From NCBI GenBank assembly GCA_030431455.1, contig JAUIJE010000016.1:124001-188000 (forward strand): a stretch of 64,000 bases of DNA, written 5' to 3'. The stretch comes from a bacterium (GTDB taxonomy: Bacteria; Myxococcota; UBA727; JAUIJE01). Below the pieces are notes generated by a model. The model saw only the letters and a list, made by a program, of their open reading frames with translations, was not told the origin of the DNA and did no database searches. This document shows positions 2,449 to 8,350 of the stretch, one piece after another. The position numbers and the translations under genes were made by a program. Within the stretch, counting starts at the first letter, position 1; each line of letters begins with the position of its first letter.

Positions 2449-3759
2449 ATGGCAAAAAGCACCGCGACCGCGCTCTTCGAACAGGGCGACGCTGCGTTCA
2501 AGCTCGGGCAATGGCGGGAGTCCCTGTCGTGTTTTGCGGGGGTGGCCGAGGTTGCGCCACTGCACTTTAAGACGCGTTTTCGCATCGCCGATTGTCTGCT
2601 CAACCTCGGGCATCGGGCGGAAGCGCTCGAGGTCTACAAGGCGATCGCCTGGCACTCGATCAAGGCCGGCTATCCCCTGTTGGGCCTGGTGGCGATCAAG
2701 ATGATCCTCTTGCTCGACCCCGCCTACGAGGACGTGTTGATGATCCTCGCGGAGCTCTACTCGTCGGACAGCGATCGGGTCGATCGCCACATCGATGGCC
2801 CCGCGGTGCCCGCCCTGCCCAACAAGACGGTGGAGCCGGTGCCGGCCGACGACAAGCTGGTGGGGGTGGCGGTGGACCGGGCGATGGAGGCCCAGCGGGT
2901 CACGGAGTTCCCCGATGTGTTGCCGCCCATCCCGCTGTTCTCGTACCTCGACGAGGACGCATTCGTTCGTGTGTTGGACAAGCTCAAGCTCCGCCGCTAC
3001 TCGTCGGAGGAACTGATCATCCGCCAAGGGGAGCGCGGGGATTCGTTTTTTATCCTCGCCGACGGCGACGTGTGGGTGAAAAAGGACCTCGAAGAAGACG
3101 GCGGCGTGACCCTCGCCCACCTGCACCGGCGCGCGGTGTTCGGCGAGATGGCCCTGATTTCTGACGAGCCGCGCCAGGCCGCGGTGGTGGCGGGGGGCGA
3201 TGCCGACGTGCTCGAGCTCCGCCGCTCCGATCTGGTGGTGATGGCGGCCCAGATGCGGTCGGTGACCGATGCGCTGAAGTCGTTCACCCGGGAGCGGTTC
3301 TTGGGCAACCTCACCGCGACCCATCCCTTCTTCGCCCCCCTCAACCGGGAGGAGCGCCACGTGGCCATGGAGCGCTTCACCCCCGTGACCTTCGACGACG
3401 GGGACGCCCTCATCCAAGAGGGCGAGCCCAGCCCGGGCCTGTACCTGCTGCTCGCCGGCCAAGCCATGGTCTCGAAGAACACCCCGCAAGACCGCGTGCA
3501 CCTCGCCACCCTGCGGGCGAGCGACCTGTGCGGCGAAATGTCACTGCTCAACTCGGGGGCCGCGACCCACGCCACCGTGCGCGCCGACGGCAAGGTCGAG
3601 GCCCTGTTCTTGTCGCGCGAAGGGTTCGGCCAGGTGGTCGACGAGCACCCGGAGCTGATCAAGTTCCTCGCCGGCCTGTCCGAGGAGCGCCTCCGGCAGA
3701 ACCGCGCGGTGCTGCAGCAAAAAGGCCTGCTCGAAGACGACGAACACGTGATGATCTGA
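2449..3759 (+). CDS. TPR protein with two cyclic-nucleotide-binding domains
   Basis: 436 residues without signal peptide. An N-terminal helical TPR-like region (about 1-85) is followed by two cNMP-binding domains (about 160-280 and 290-405). The first has an intact phosphate-binding cassette, FGEMALISDEPRQAAV, with the expected Glu and Arg. The second reads CGEMSLLNSGAATHATV and lacks the Arg, so it may not bind nucleotide. No DNA-binding or catalytic domain is attached, which suggests a cytoplasmic sensor/adaptor. Two further cNMP-domain proteins are encoded at 27302-30752, one of them also with TPRs, so this is part of a cyclic-nucleotide theme in the window. It probably shares a transcript with the upstream PEGA gene. 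Confidence 0.85.
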   Translation: MAKSTATALFEQGDAAFKLGQWRESLSCFAGVAEVAPLHFKTRFRIADCLLNLGHRAEALEVYKAIAWHSIKAGYPLLGLVAIKMILLLDPAYEDVLMILAELYSSDSDRVDRHIDGPAVPALPNKTVEPVPADDKLVGVAVDRAMEAQRVTEFPDVLPPIPLFSYLDEDAFVRVLDKLKLRRYSSEELIIRQGERGDSFFILADGDVWVKKDLEEDGGVTLAHLHRRAVFGEMALISDEPRQAAVVAGGDADVLELRRSDLVVMAAQMRSVTDALKSFTRERFLGNLTATHPFFAPLNREERHVAMERFTPVTFDDGDALIQEGEPSPGLYLLLAGQAMVSKNTPQDRVHLATLRASDLCGEMSLLNSGAATHATVRADGKVEALFLSREGFGQVVDEHPELIKFLAGLSEERLRQNRAVLQQKGLLEDDEHVMI

Positions 3760-3791: not shown

Positions 3792-4748
3792 TCACTTCAA
3801 CGGCGGCGATTGTCGACGACCGCCGCGCACCGATTCGAGCAAGGCGCGGAACGCTTCGTCGGTGCGCGCCAGGTGCATGCCCTGCGCGACCAACCGGCTG
3901 ACCTGGGCCTTGTCCCGGTTCATGAACGCGGCCACCTCGGTGACCGACCGGCCCGCGGACCGCACCGCGGTGGTGGCCAGCAGCCGGCGCGCGACCACGA
4001 GGTCCTGCACCCGCGAGCTGCTCTTGATGTCCTCGGTGGGCACGTTCATCAGCAGCGACACGCGGGTGGCGAGGGTCTTGAGCGCGGGGCGCCGCCGTCC
4101 GCGCCACACCACCCCGAGCTCGGCGAGCACGGTCTCGGCGAAGCGGCGATCCCCGGCGATGCCGGGGATGGCCTCGGTGACCCCCAGGGAGTCGGGTTCG
4201 AGCGCGGCCTCGAGGGCAAACCGCGCGAACGCCCGCTGCGCCACCGGCAAGGTCTCGCCGAACTCCTCGAGCACGCTCCAGGCCGCGACCAGGTCCCCCC
4301 ACTCGTCGCCGCTGGCGACATACGCGCGGTGGCTGCTCCAGGGATAGGTCTCGGGCCGGCGCACCCGGTCGACGCGCACCGGCCACAGGTGCGCGGCCCG
4401 GACCGCTGCGGGGATGGCCTCGTCGGGGATGATCAGCGAACGGAACCGGCCCTCGAACAGGTGCCCGGTCCGGCCCAGCCGGTTGTTGATGCGCCGGGCG
4501 TGCGCGGTGTGCACCGCCTGCACCGACCGGGCGAGGTCTTTGCGGGTGGGGCGGATGACGAGGCGGATTTCTTGCCGCATCAAACAATACGCGTAGAGGG
4601 TGAACAGCTGGTCGCGCACCATCTCGCGCAGCTTCTCGAGATAGGCCTCGAAATCGGTGTCGTCATAAAACAGCGGCGCGCGGTTGTTGCCCCGGGCCAC
4701 GACGACGTGGGGATGGCCGAGCAGGGTGAAGCGCCGGGTGCGCGCCAT
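3792..4748 (-). CDS. RAYT-like (Y1/REP-associated) transposase homologue with degenerate active site
   Basis: 318 residues. The N-terminal half aligns by eye with Y1/REP-associated tyrosine transposases: the GHPHVVVARGNNR opening, the YCLM strand and the TGHLFEGRFRS block are present. The HUH position, normally MPNHVHLL, reads MRQEIRLV (residues 57-64), so both metal-binding His are replaced. The region that should carry the nucleophilic Tyr reads AHARRINNRLG (82-92) with no Tyr. The C-terminal region (about 205-310) resembles a DnaA-type helix-turn-helix (SVTEVAAFMNRDKAQVSRL). The ATG overlaps the TGA of the upstream ATPase gene by one base, so translation is likely coupled. Best read as a domesticated DNA-binding derivative, not an active transposase. 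Confidence 0.82.
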   Translation of the reverse strand: MARTRRFTLLGHPHVVVARGNNRAPLFYDDTDFEAYLEKLREMVRDQLFTLYAYCLMRQEIRLVIRPTRKDLARSVQAVHTAHARRINNRLGRTGHLFEGRFRSLIIPDEAIPAAVRAAHLWPVRVDRVRRPETYPWSSHRAYVASGDEWGDLVAAWSVLEEFGETLPVAQRAFARFALEAALEPDSLGVTEAIPGIAGDRRFAETVLAELGVVWRGRRRPALKTLATRVSLLMNVPTEDIKSSSRVQDLVVARRLLATTAVRSAGRSVTEVAAFMNRDKAQVSRLVAQGMHLARTDEAFRALLESVRGGRRQSPPLK

Positions 4749-7700
4749 CAGCCCGCCTCGCGTTTTCCCGCGGGGAGGGCGGTCAACGCCTCGCGGAGCC
4801 GGACCCGGGAGGGCAACGACCAAAAGCGGGCCCGGGCATCGTCCGACAATGAAGCTGCAGACTGTTCGAGGGCCTCGACCGCGTCCCGGTACACACTCTG
4901 GGCCTCGTCCTCGTCATCCTGCTCGACGGCCAACGCGGCGTGTTCGAGGGCCACCACCTCGAAGCCGGGGGCGGTGGGGCCCAGCTCGCTCGCGACCTCA
5001 AAGGCGCGCTGGGTGTAGAGCATCGCGTCCGCGGTCTCGTCGAGGGCGTGCAAGGTGGCGCCCAGGAGCGCCGGCCCCAGGGTCTGGCCCGCGGCCACCC
5101 CGTGGGCTTCGCCGAGGTCGGCGGCGGTGCGGGCGTGGCTCTTGGCCGCGCGCAGCATTTGTTCTTTGGCCGCCGCGGTCTTGGCCTCCCTGGCTTTGCG
5201 CCATTTGCACAATGCGGTGTAGCTGGCGATCTCACACGCGATGCGGGGCACGGGCCGGTCGCGTTTGCGCCGCTTGAGGTTGCTCAAGATGCGCTCGGCC
5301 TCGTCGATGTCGCCGCCGGCGACAAAGATGCGCGCGAGCAACACGCTCGCCCGCTGCTCGAGGTGGGACAGGCCGGCGTCCATGGCCAAGGCTTGGGCCT
5401 TCTCCGCCCGGGCCTGGGCGGTGTCGAGGTCGGCGAGCATCAACGAAAGCTCCGCCCCCACCGCCAAGGTCTCCGCCCGGCCGCTGTCGTCCCCGATCCG
5501 GCGGCGCAACTCCAGGGCCTGGTCGAGGACCGTCTCCGCCGTGTGGTACCGCATCAGCGACGTGAGCACTTCGGCGAGCATGTCCAGGCACGCGGCTTCG
5601 CCCGACGGGTCCGCGGCTTGTCGACGGTACACCCGGGCCCACAGGAAGTGATCGAGGGCGAACAGCGGCCGGCGCCGGGCCCGCTCGAGCACCCCGCGCT
5701 GAAACCGCAGCGCGGCCCGGGCCTGGGCATCGCCCGGTCCGGCCGCCTCCGCTTCGTTGAGCGCCCGGGACGCGTCGTCGAGCCGGCCCCGGGCGAACTC
5801 CGCGAGGGCGAGCAGCCGCAGCCCCTGCAGCGAAGCGCGCTCGTCGTCGAGACCCGCGGCGAGGCGGACCGCTTCGTGGGCCGCGGGCACGGCCTTGTCC
5901 GGGTCCTGCACCAACACATTGAACCGCGCGACGCAGAGCAGACCGCGCATGCGGTCGCGGGGCTGGCCGCTCTGTTCGGCGGCTTTGAGGAGCTTTTTGA
6001 GGGCCGCGACCCGGACCTGGCGGGAGCCTTCGGCGTTGCGCTCCCCCTCGAGCAACAGCCCGAACACTTCGTCGGGCACCTTCTGTTCGAGCCCCCGCGC
6101 GACGTAGCGCTGGGCCCCGGCCGCGTCCCCCCAGCGGTGGGCCCGGCGTGCGGCCAACCGGCACATCTCCGCCGCGCGTCGACGCGCACCGGCGGCGGCG
6201 AGATGACGGGCCAAGGGGCCGGGCAGGGCGTGTTCGGCGTCGGGCAACAAGATGTCGTAGGCCTCGGCCACCAGCTCGTGCGCGGTCTGGCGCTCGTCTT
6301 TTGTGAGCAGCTCGAGGGCCACGGCCCGGACCAGGGGGTGGGCGAAGGCCAGGCTCGGGTTGTCCTGTCCGGGCACGGTGTCGGCGAACACCGGGGCCGC
6401 GGGCCGGGGGCGCTGGGTGCGCAACAGCCCGGTGTGGAGCAGGGTCTTGAGCGCGATGCGCAACGCGTCGCGCTCGACCCCGAGGCGCACGGCCACAAAC
6501 TCCGCCGCCGCGGGCATGAACACCTCGCCGAACAGCGCACAAAAGCCGAGCACCCGGCGCACGTGGTCGGGGATGTGGGCGAACCGTTCGCGCACGATGC
6601 GCTCGCCGCTGGCCCACACGTCCTTGCGGCGGACCTGACCGGTGTCGAAACCCTCGGGGGTGCGCACGATGGTGCCTTGCTCGAGCGCGAGGCGGATGGC
6701 TTGGGTGAGCACAAAGGGCGAACCTTTGCTCTTTTCGATAAATGCAGAAGCATCGACATGTTCGCCGAGCCAGCTCGCGCACAGGGACTTGCTCGCCCCC
6801 GCGGGCAGCGGCTTGAGCCCGCGCCGGGCGTCGACGAACTTGTCGGTGAAGGCCTTGCGCAGCCGGGGGGCGCGGGGACACACCAGGACCAGCCGCAGCC
6901 GGGGCCCGAGCTGTTCGGCCAAGAACGTGAAGAACGCCGCGTCGAGGGGCAGCCAGTCGTCGGCGCCGGGCACCACCACCACCACCGGGCGGCCGTCGGC
7001 GCGGTGGCTGAGCGCGGTGCAGATCAACACCAGCGCCCGGCGCACCGCCGCGATGCGGGCGCGGGGCCCGAGGGACTCGGCCTCGTCCTGGTCCCCGACC
7101 TCGGTGAGCGCGCCGACCAGCGAGCCGAGCACCGCGTGGTACCGCAGCAGTTCGGCCGCGTCGTCGGCGGACAGGTACTCGCCGAGGCCATCGAGCAGCC
7201 GGGCCAAGCGGGCCGCGGCCCGTCGGTTGCCGGGGGCGGCGTCGGCCAGCGCGCGCACCATCGCCACCACCGGGCGCAATGGTTCTGGGTCTTCGTGGGC
7301 CACCGCCCCCCACAGGACCGGGGCGCGCTCGTCGTCGTACCCCGCCGCGGCCAGGGCCTGGCGCAGGCAGCTGGTCTTGCCCACCCCGGAGGGGCCGTGC
7401 AGCACGATCAACCCCGGCCGGTCGTCGTCTCCGGCCGCGAGCCGGTCGGCGAGCCAGGCAATGTCTTTGTCTCGGCCCACGAACGGGGGGGGCGGGAGCT
7501 GGGCCGCGAGCTTCCAGCGGTCGGCCGCGAAGGGGGCCAGCGGGTCGACGGCGCTCTTTTGTCGAGGGTGCAGGTGCAAGCCGGGGAGCGCGGCGCGGAT
7601 GTGATCGTCGACCGCGAGCAAGCCCCCGTCGGGCAGGGCGCGGTTGGCGGCGAGGGTCGCGCTCAGCTCAGGGTCGTCGACGTCGGCATCAAACGCGACC

Positions 7701-8350
7701 AGCGCGCTCTGCAGCCCCGGCCGGGCGGGGGCGTCGGTGGACCGGACGATGCCGCCGAGCAACTCGACCAAGCGGCGGGCGGCCTCGTCGAGGGGACCGC
7801 CGGCGGAGGCGAGCAGCTCGTCGGGCGCGGACCGCGACAGGGTGATGCCGTCGGGGGGCAGGGCGTCGCGCCAGGGGAGCAACGCTTGGGCGGCGGCCAC
7901 CGACGTGGCGCGCACCCGCAACAGGGCCGAGCGTTCCCCGAGCAAGGCCGCGTCCTCGTCGGGCAGGGTGGGCAACGCGTGAAACACCCCGCTCATCGAC
8001 TGCACCGCGGTCACGGTGGGGTCGTCCGCGACCTGCGGGGGCGAACGCGGCCGGTTGCGCAGAGCGTGAAACGCGGCGTCCACCTCGTTGTCGTAGACCC
8101 CGAGGGCGGCCAGGGTCTCGGCCAGGGCATCGGCCGCGGCTTGGATCTCGGCCCCGCCGTACACCGAGGGGGGCCCGTCGTCGGGGGCGGTGCCGGCCAG
8201 GGTGTGGGCGAACTCATCGAGCACCGCGTCGAGCAGTTCGCCGCGCAGCCCCGCGTCGAGGTAGGCCGCGCGCGGGTCGTCGGCGAGGCGGGGCAAGGCC
8301 CCCTCCCGAAGTTGGTTGCGCGCGCGCTGCAGGAGCTGGACGAGTCGCAA
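4748..8350 (-). CDS. Large AAA/STAND-like ATPase with TPR solenoid
   Basis: 1200 residues. Residues 1-285 match nothing I recognise. A PPPFVGRDKDIAWL motif (287-300) begins an AAA_16-like NTPase with Walker A GPSGVGKTS (319-327) and a Walker-B-like strand VVVVVPGADDW (about 456-466). From about residue 690 to the C-terminus the protein is a helical TPR-like solenoid. The layout is that of MalT/LAL or kinase-linked AAA_16 proteins, but the protein has neither a LuxR helix-turn-helix nor a kinase domain. The proposed start is TTG, two codons after an in-frame stop and next to GTGAGGG. The spacing is short, so a downstream start is possible. It ends overlapping the degenerate RAYT gene and starts 44 bases from the divergent ABC operon. 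Confidence 0.82.
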   Translation of the reverse strand: MRLVQLLQRARNQLREGALPRLADDPRAAYLDAGLRGELLDAVLDEFAHTLAGTAPDDGPPSVYGGAEIQAAADALAETLAALGVYDNEVDAAFHALRNRPRSPPQVADDPTVTAVQSMSGVFHALPTLPDEDAALLGERSALLRVRATSVAAAQALLPWRDALPPDGITLSRSAPDELLASAGGPLDEAARRLVELLGGIVRSTDAPARPGLQSALVAFDADVDDPELSATLAANRALPDGGLLAVDDHIRAALPGLHLHPRQKSAVDPLAPFAADRWKLAAQLPPPPFVGRDKDIAWLADRLAAGDDDRPGLIVLHGPSGVGKTSCLRQALAAAGYDDERAPVLWGAVAHEDPEPLRPVVAMVRALADAAPGNRRAAARLARLLDGLGEYLSADDAAELLRYHAVLGSLVGALTEVGDQDEAESLGPRARIAAVRRALVLICTALSHRADGRPVVVVVPGADDWLPLDAAFFTFLAEQLGPRLRLVLVCPRAPRLRKAFTDKFVDARRGLKPLPAGASKSLCASWLGEHVDASAFIEKSKGSPFVLTQAIRLALEQGTIVRTPEGFDTGQVRRKDVWASGERIVRERFAHIPDHVRRVLGFCALFGEVFMPAAAEFVAVRLGVERDALRIALKTLLHTGLLRTQRPRPAAPVFADTVPGQDNPSLAFAHPLVRAVALELLTKDERQTAHELVAEAYDILLPDAEHALPGPLARHLAAAGARRRAAEMCRLAARRAHRWGDAAGAQRYVARGLEQKVPDEVFGLLLEGERNAEGSRQVRVAALKKLLKAAEQSGQPRDRMRGLLCVARFNVLVQDPDKAVPAAHEAVRLAAGLDDERASLQGLRLLALAEFARGRLDDASRALNEAEAAGPGDAQARAALRFQRGVLERARRRPLFALDHFLWARVYRRQAADPSGEAACLDMLAEVLTSLMRYHTAETVLDQALELRRRIGDDSGRAETLAVGAELSLMLADLDTAQARAEKAQALAMDAGLSHLEQRASVLLARIFVAGGDIDEAERILSNLKRRKRDRPVPRIACEIASYTALCKWRKAREAKTAAAKEQMLRAAKSHARTAADLGEAHGVAAGQTLGPALLGATLHALDETADAMLYTQRAFEVASELGPTAPGFEVVALEHAALAVEQDDEDEAQSVYRDAVEALEQSAASLSDDARARFWSLPSRVRLREALTALPAGKREAG

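Follow-up and report, generated by a model that had tools for sequence, protein, structure and literature searches.

The window, a stretch of 64,000 nucleotides, carries on its minus strand a gene (3792-4748, with the ATG at 4748) whose product of 318 aa appears to be a catalytically dead derivative of the RAYT/TnpAREP transposases, here called the RAYT-like protein. Its upstream neighbour on the same strand, a gene with a TTG start (4748-8350), encodes an AAA_16 and TPR protein of 1200 aa, which is not a conserved partner. At the TGATG junction (4746-4750, minus strand), the stop codon of the ATPase and the start codon of the RAYT-like gene share one base. The gene coordinates, this overlap and the motifs GNNR, YCLM and TGHLFEGRFRS were already given by an earlier sequence-only reading of the locus and were all found again. 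On the plus strand, a gene at 2449-3759 encodes TPRs and two cyclic-nucleotide-binding domains; it is convergent and reads towards the RAYT-like gene.

The N-terminal part of the RAYT-like protein (residues 14-128; 4365-4709, minus strand) is assigned to a Y1/HUH-type domain. The match to Y1_Tnp in Pfam is weak, with 23.3 bits against a cut-off of 23, and the match to NF047646 (REP-associated tyrosine transposase; 5.6e-10) is under the cut-off. The structure was predicted with 12 orthologues (pLDDT 87.8), and the best Foldseek match of the N-terminal domain of this predicted model is 4er8, the E. coli TnpAREP with a REP hairpin (E 1.5e-5). It would appear from the model that the RAYT-like protein has kept the Y1 fold, like E. 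coli TnpAREP (4ER8). The C-terminal part (residues 222-308; 3825-4085, minus strand) is a DnaA domain IV-like, putatively DNA-binding domain. Its assignment comes from a Bac_DnaA_C match (2.4e-5) under the Pfam curated cut-off and rests partly on the predicted model, in which the domain matches 1j1v (DnaA domain IV) with a Foldseek TM to target of 0.84; outside DnaA, a PDB search with the A1 profile returned weak matches at chance level only. The domain includes a helix-turn-helix (residues 265-292; 3873-3956, minus strand) with the near-invariant recognition helix R(D/N)K(A/S/G)Q(V/I)SRL, and it resembles DnaA domain IV (1J1V) in the predicted fold and in the R-D with which the recognition loop begins. 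Unlike DnaA, the RAYT-like protein has no AAA+ domain. DnaA domain IV reads bases through H-T-T, which is replaced here by K-A-Q, and a different target from that of DnaA is therefore expected.

The alignment with the 4er8 sequence places H59, H61 and Y115 of E. coli, the last being the catalytic Tyr of its TnpAREP (PMC8266576), opposite E60, R62 and A118. A degenerate HUH site, E60-I61-R62 (4563-4571, minus strand), replaces H-x-H, and A118 (4395-4397, minus strand) occupies the column of the catalytic Tyr. H-x-H and Tyr are kept in 28 of 28 comparator RAYTs of the phylum and in 0 of 12 orthologues, among which the column of the first His holds E, A, S or Q and that of the catalytic Tyr A, W, S, N, E or F. 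The earlier claim that E60 and R62 stand instead of the HUH histidines is thus borne out by the alignment to E. coli TnpAREP and the comparators, whereas the claim that the catalytic Tyr is replaced holds in part: the Tyr is gone (A118), but the AHARRINN region (column 83), where the loss had been located, is not that site. Residue 83 (4500-4502, minus strand) is an invariant His among the orthologues and Tyr in most active relatives; since some active relatives have F, W, H or L there, the column is not catalytic, and the alignment of Y115 of 4ER8 with A118 also rules it out. With the two histidines of the HUH motif and the catalytic Tyr all gone, the RAYT-like protein has probably become unable to cleave and religate single-stranded DNA, and we infer that it does not cut DNA.

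The loss of the active site is accompanied by a different pattern of conservation along the protein. In the dead family the mean pairwise identity is 48% in the Y1 core and 74% in the recognition helix (residues 277-292), which also contains the 16-residue windows of highest conservation. Two active clades show 70% and 59% in the Y1 core but just 45% and 26% in the helix, which there ranks 223rd and 238th of 283 windows. Conservation is inverted: the catalytic domain is best kept in the active relatives and the recognition helix in the dead family. This inversion would be expected of a switch from catalysis to the reading of a fixed DNA site; alternatively, a conserved protein interface could have caused the conservation of the helix. 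The sequence-only reading had supposed that the helix-turn-helix was gained by the RAYT-like protein. A C-terminus like DnaA domain IV is indeed present, but it is no acquisition of the dead lineage, since relatives with an intact HUH carry a comparable C-terminal domain (see also PMC6006769): it is alignable in the active relatives L086, L088, L023 and L097, and L023 (intact HUH) gives a weak Bac_DnaA_C match, the match being under the curated cut-off in each member tested. The DnaA-like domain is older than the domestication. A Bac_DnaA_C domain has been described in subgroup 2.1.2 of TnpAREP (Quentin et al. 2018, PMC6006769), and the C-terminal Bac_DnaA_C-like domain of the RAYT-like protein indicates an ancestry of the subclass 2.1.2 type. 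The order of parts, with a Bac_DnaA_C/HTH domain on the C-terminal side of the Y1 core, is that of subclass 2.1 (2.1.2; TIRYT-like), among whose longer members the protein would stand; unlike subclass 2.1, it has lost the HUH residues and the Tyr altogether. Sequences without the core motifs were excluded from the published classification as likely non-functional (Quentin et al. 2018, PMC6006769).

Of 16 genomes of the order, 12 were found to carry orthologues of the RAYT-like protein (413-513 bits), the next best match in the phylum reaching only 122 bits; among 195 genomes of the phylum they are restricted to this order, which is sampled by these 16 genomes and is the only order of its class in the sample. 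The gene is single-copy where present, and the 12 genomes span five families and include genomes as small as 1.3-1.8 Mb. The four genomes without it are the reduced genomes G009 and G012 and two others that are about 70-73% complete. The reduced genomes, both of family f5 (G009, ~0.5 Mb and 91% complete; G012, ~0.3 Mb and 87% complete), share the order with genomes of 6-8 Mb. A scan of 84,980 species with two peptide patterns from the dead family, which diverged relatives would escape, returned eight loci, with titles reading Deltaproteobacteria, Myxococcales, Myxococcota and, in one case, Euryarchaeota. The last, L062 (JABDBI010000014.1), is titled Euryarchaeota archaeon and encodes a clear orthologue; the title is probably wrong. 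No viral relative was detected in an IMG/VR scan, and viral spread was rejected on this basis. The dead proteins are monophyletic (support 100/99). The RAYT-like and rpoB trees both recover an f4 clade, an f5 clade and G006 as basal in f4; they show minor differences within f5, and support is low for the deep branchings of the RAYT-like tree. Class 2 TnpAREP are distributed patchily, which would agree with horizontal transfer (Quentin et al. 2018, PMC6006769); by contrast with the patchy, horizontally spread subclass 2.1, the RAYT-like gene is retained across the order, and its distribution is compatible with vertical descent. Within genus g4, dN/dS (Nei-Gojobori) is 0.08-0.17, and the more distant pair G000/G006 gives 0.43, these values being approximate as dS is high in some pairs; by this measure the dead Y1 domain is about as constrained as the helix-turn-helix.

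With 12 of 12 orthologues dead and conserved, the view of the protein as a domesticated, catalytically dead and probably DNA-binding RAYT derivative is upheld. The dead clade, the purifying selection and the inverted conservation point to an ancient exapted transposase rather than a decaying copy. We therefore propose, with somewhat better than even confidence, that the RAYT-like protein is an exapted TnpAREP-type transposase now acting as a chromosomal sequence-specific DNA-binding protein, next to which the ATPase is incidental. Before the order diversified, a Y1/HUH transposase would have lost all three catalytic residues; the Y1 fold would have been kept, and selective constraint put on the DnaA domain IV-like helix-turn-helix, which would read a conserved double-stranded site. 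The protein may serve as a transcriptional regulator or as a nucleoid- or replication-associated factor, with the former catalytic domain providing structure, an interaction surface or a second nucleic-acid-binding surface, and the ATPase would be an incidental operon neighbour. DNA binding is suggested by the helix-turn-helix fold of the model and by the conservation of the recognition helix; a single conserved target and a regulatory role would follow the same line of reasoning. No operator was seen by eye in the regions upstream of the RAYT-like gene. It can be hypothesised, more tentatively, that the order possesses a core DNA-binding factor derived from an HUH transposase, which recognises one site through its DnaA-like domain and possibly takes part in replication or nucleoid control.

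To our knowledge, RAYTs are called domesticated transposases and the studied ones keep catalysis. Here a dead RAYT lineage is retained across five families, 1.3-1.8 Mb genomes included, and constraint appears to have moved from catalysis to the reading of DNA. The question of why hosts keep RAYTs becomes directly testable, with one protein and one expected DNA motif, and dead RAYT copies should not be discarded unexamined. If the more tentative hypothesis is true, the protein would be an HUH-derived counterpart of the eukaryotic transcription factors that arose from domesticated transposases. The open-access literature searched yielded no account of a dead RAYT that is maintained as a core gene; as the search was limited to open-access papers, the novelty is provisional.

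It is conceivable, albeit rather unlikely, that the old Y1 domain still binds REP-like hairpins of single-stranded DNA or RNA and that the protein is a structural or anti-recombination factor which does not cut. The retention of the Y1 fold under purifying selection would agree with this, as would G008: allowing up to 3 mismatches, this genome has 488 copies of a TTCAAGACGC-N4-GCGTCTTGAA hairpin, many of them tandemly arrayed, and in it no intact Y1 protein was matched. However, in the other genomes the only trace of this hairpin is a single 3-mismatch match in G001, so that it cannot be the general target. Moreover, no hairpin family of more than two copies was found in 464 kb of G000, the source genome (6% sampled), and the E. 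coli residues that contact GTAG are not kept, Q95 being aligned with E99 and R104 with a gap. The k-mer and hairpin scans of samples of G000, G007 and G008 revealed no REP-like partner common to the order, so that a shared REP partner found no support in these samples; subclass 2.1 of TnpAREP has been described as lacking REPs (PMC6006769). The RAYT-like protein also differs from E. coli TnpAREP, which has the active H59/H61/Y115, no DnaA-like domain and a cognate REP family, as opposed to E60/R62/A118, an extra domain and no REP family found in the sampled genome. The REP/BIME-like hairpin of G008, TTCAAGACGC-GCCA-GCGTCTTGAA, occurs in both orientations, often in 33-34 bp arrays (examples L143-L162 and G008:C9:271996-272153), and is absent from genus mates. 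Recurrent hairpins with CCCTCTCC stems were also seen at L123-L142 (G007:C1), in a 1.8 Mb genome with IS200-like TnpA genes.

Truncated or dead transposases acting as repressors are a precedent class, and it was also considered that the protein might have been domesticated to repress active IS200/RAYT elements in a dominant-negative manner, conferring transposon immunity. In line with such a role, several large genomes with the RAYT-like gene have no intact Y1 transposase matched, no active one being found in G000, G001, G002, G003 and G008. The f5 genomes speak against it, as they carry the RAYT-like gene together with intact-length IS200-like TnpA, whose open frames of ~130-230 aa leave no room for a DnaA-like domain, whereas in the RAYT-like protein the recognition helix of that domain is the most constrained part. 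We regard a repressor role as improbable.

The sequence-only reading had made the ATPase a partner, a TPR sensor of some signal which would drive or gate the RAYT-like DNA-binding subunit in a regulatory or defence module. The large protein contains, besides its TPRs, an AAA_16 domain (6884-7486, minus strand; 1.2e-12) with an intact Walker A (GPSGVGKT; GKA in G006 and G003). Walker B lacks the usual acidic pair in the ATPase and its homologues (VVPGADD, VVSGAD/E), and hydrolysis is thus doubtful. Its AAA_16 and TPR architecture is that of STAND proteins (MalT-like, TOMM kinase/cyclase type), from which it differs in the degenerate Walker B, in matching them only distantly and in that no kinase or HTH domain was found. 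Partnership finds some support in the one-base overlap of the reading frames in the source genome and in G006, where the genes have the same order and strand and are separated by ~3.8 kb that contain genes on the opposite strand. Nevertheless, when the two genes were sought as neighbours in other genomes, as that reading had suggested, adjacency proved not to be conserved. ATPase homologues occur only in f1/f4 genomes (four f4 genomes besides the source genome, 34-41% identity by stretch, one short weak match in G041 left aside), and the genes are adjacent in 0 of these 4 other genomes that have both. In G008 they lie on separate long contigs, each well inside; the two are split between contigs in G003 and G010, where no RAYT-like match occurs in the stretch downstream of the ATPase, the contig of G003 ending directly upstream of the RAYT-like gene. 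Seven further genomes have the RAYT-like gene and no detected ATPase homologue, and the position upstream of it is taken, in close linkage, by a TauE permease in G008 and G010 and by hisS in G001. The two proteins have also diverged at unlike rates, with 66% identity for the RAYT-like protein and 36% for the ATPase between G000 and G006. Apart from a weak TPR hit of the ATPase, PADLOC matched neither protein and gave no useful indication of a known anti-phage defence system. The synteny rules out a conserved two-gene system, and a functional pair in any form is highly improbable. The flanking genes common to f1, f2 and f3 mark a common old locus: a hisS-cmk-aminotransferase-miaA-mutL block lies near the RAYT-like gene in f1, f2 and f3, and a metallophosphoesterase in f1 and f3. 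In G007, G011 and G015, alr follows downstream with overlapping codons. Across the order genomes with the gene, no conserved operon partner that would name a pathway was seen.

A changed enzyme, in which the invariant His83 and R62 (present in 11 of 12 orthologues) form a new active site, is scarcely credible, as three orthologues have A, S or Q at position 60 and one has Y at position 62, and no metal-binding triad is apparent. A decaying pseudogene or a recent loss of activity in the source strain, with intact relatives, might be suspected from the loss of all three catalytic residues, but it is refuted by the orthologue set and can be practically dismissed, the same loss being found in 12 of 12 orthologues from five families, which form one clade with intact reading frames under purifying selection.
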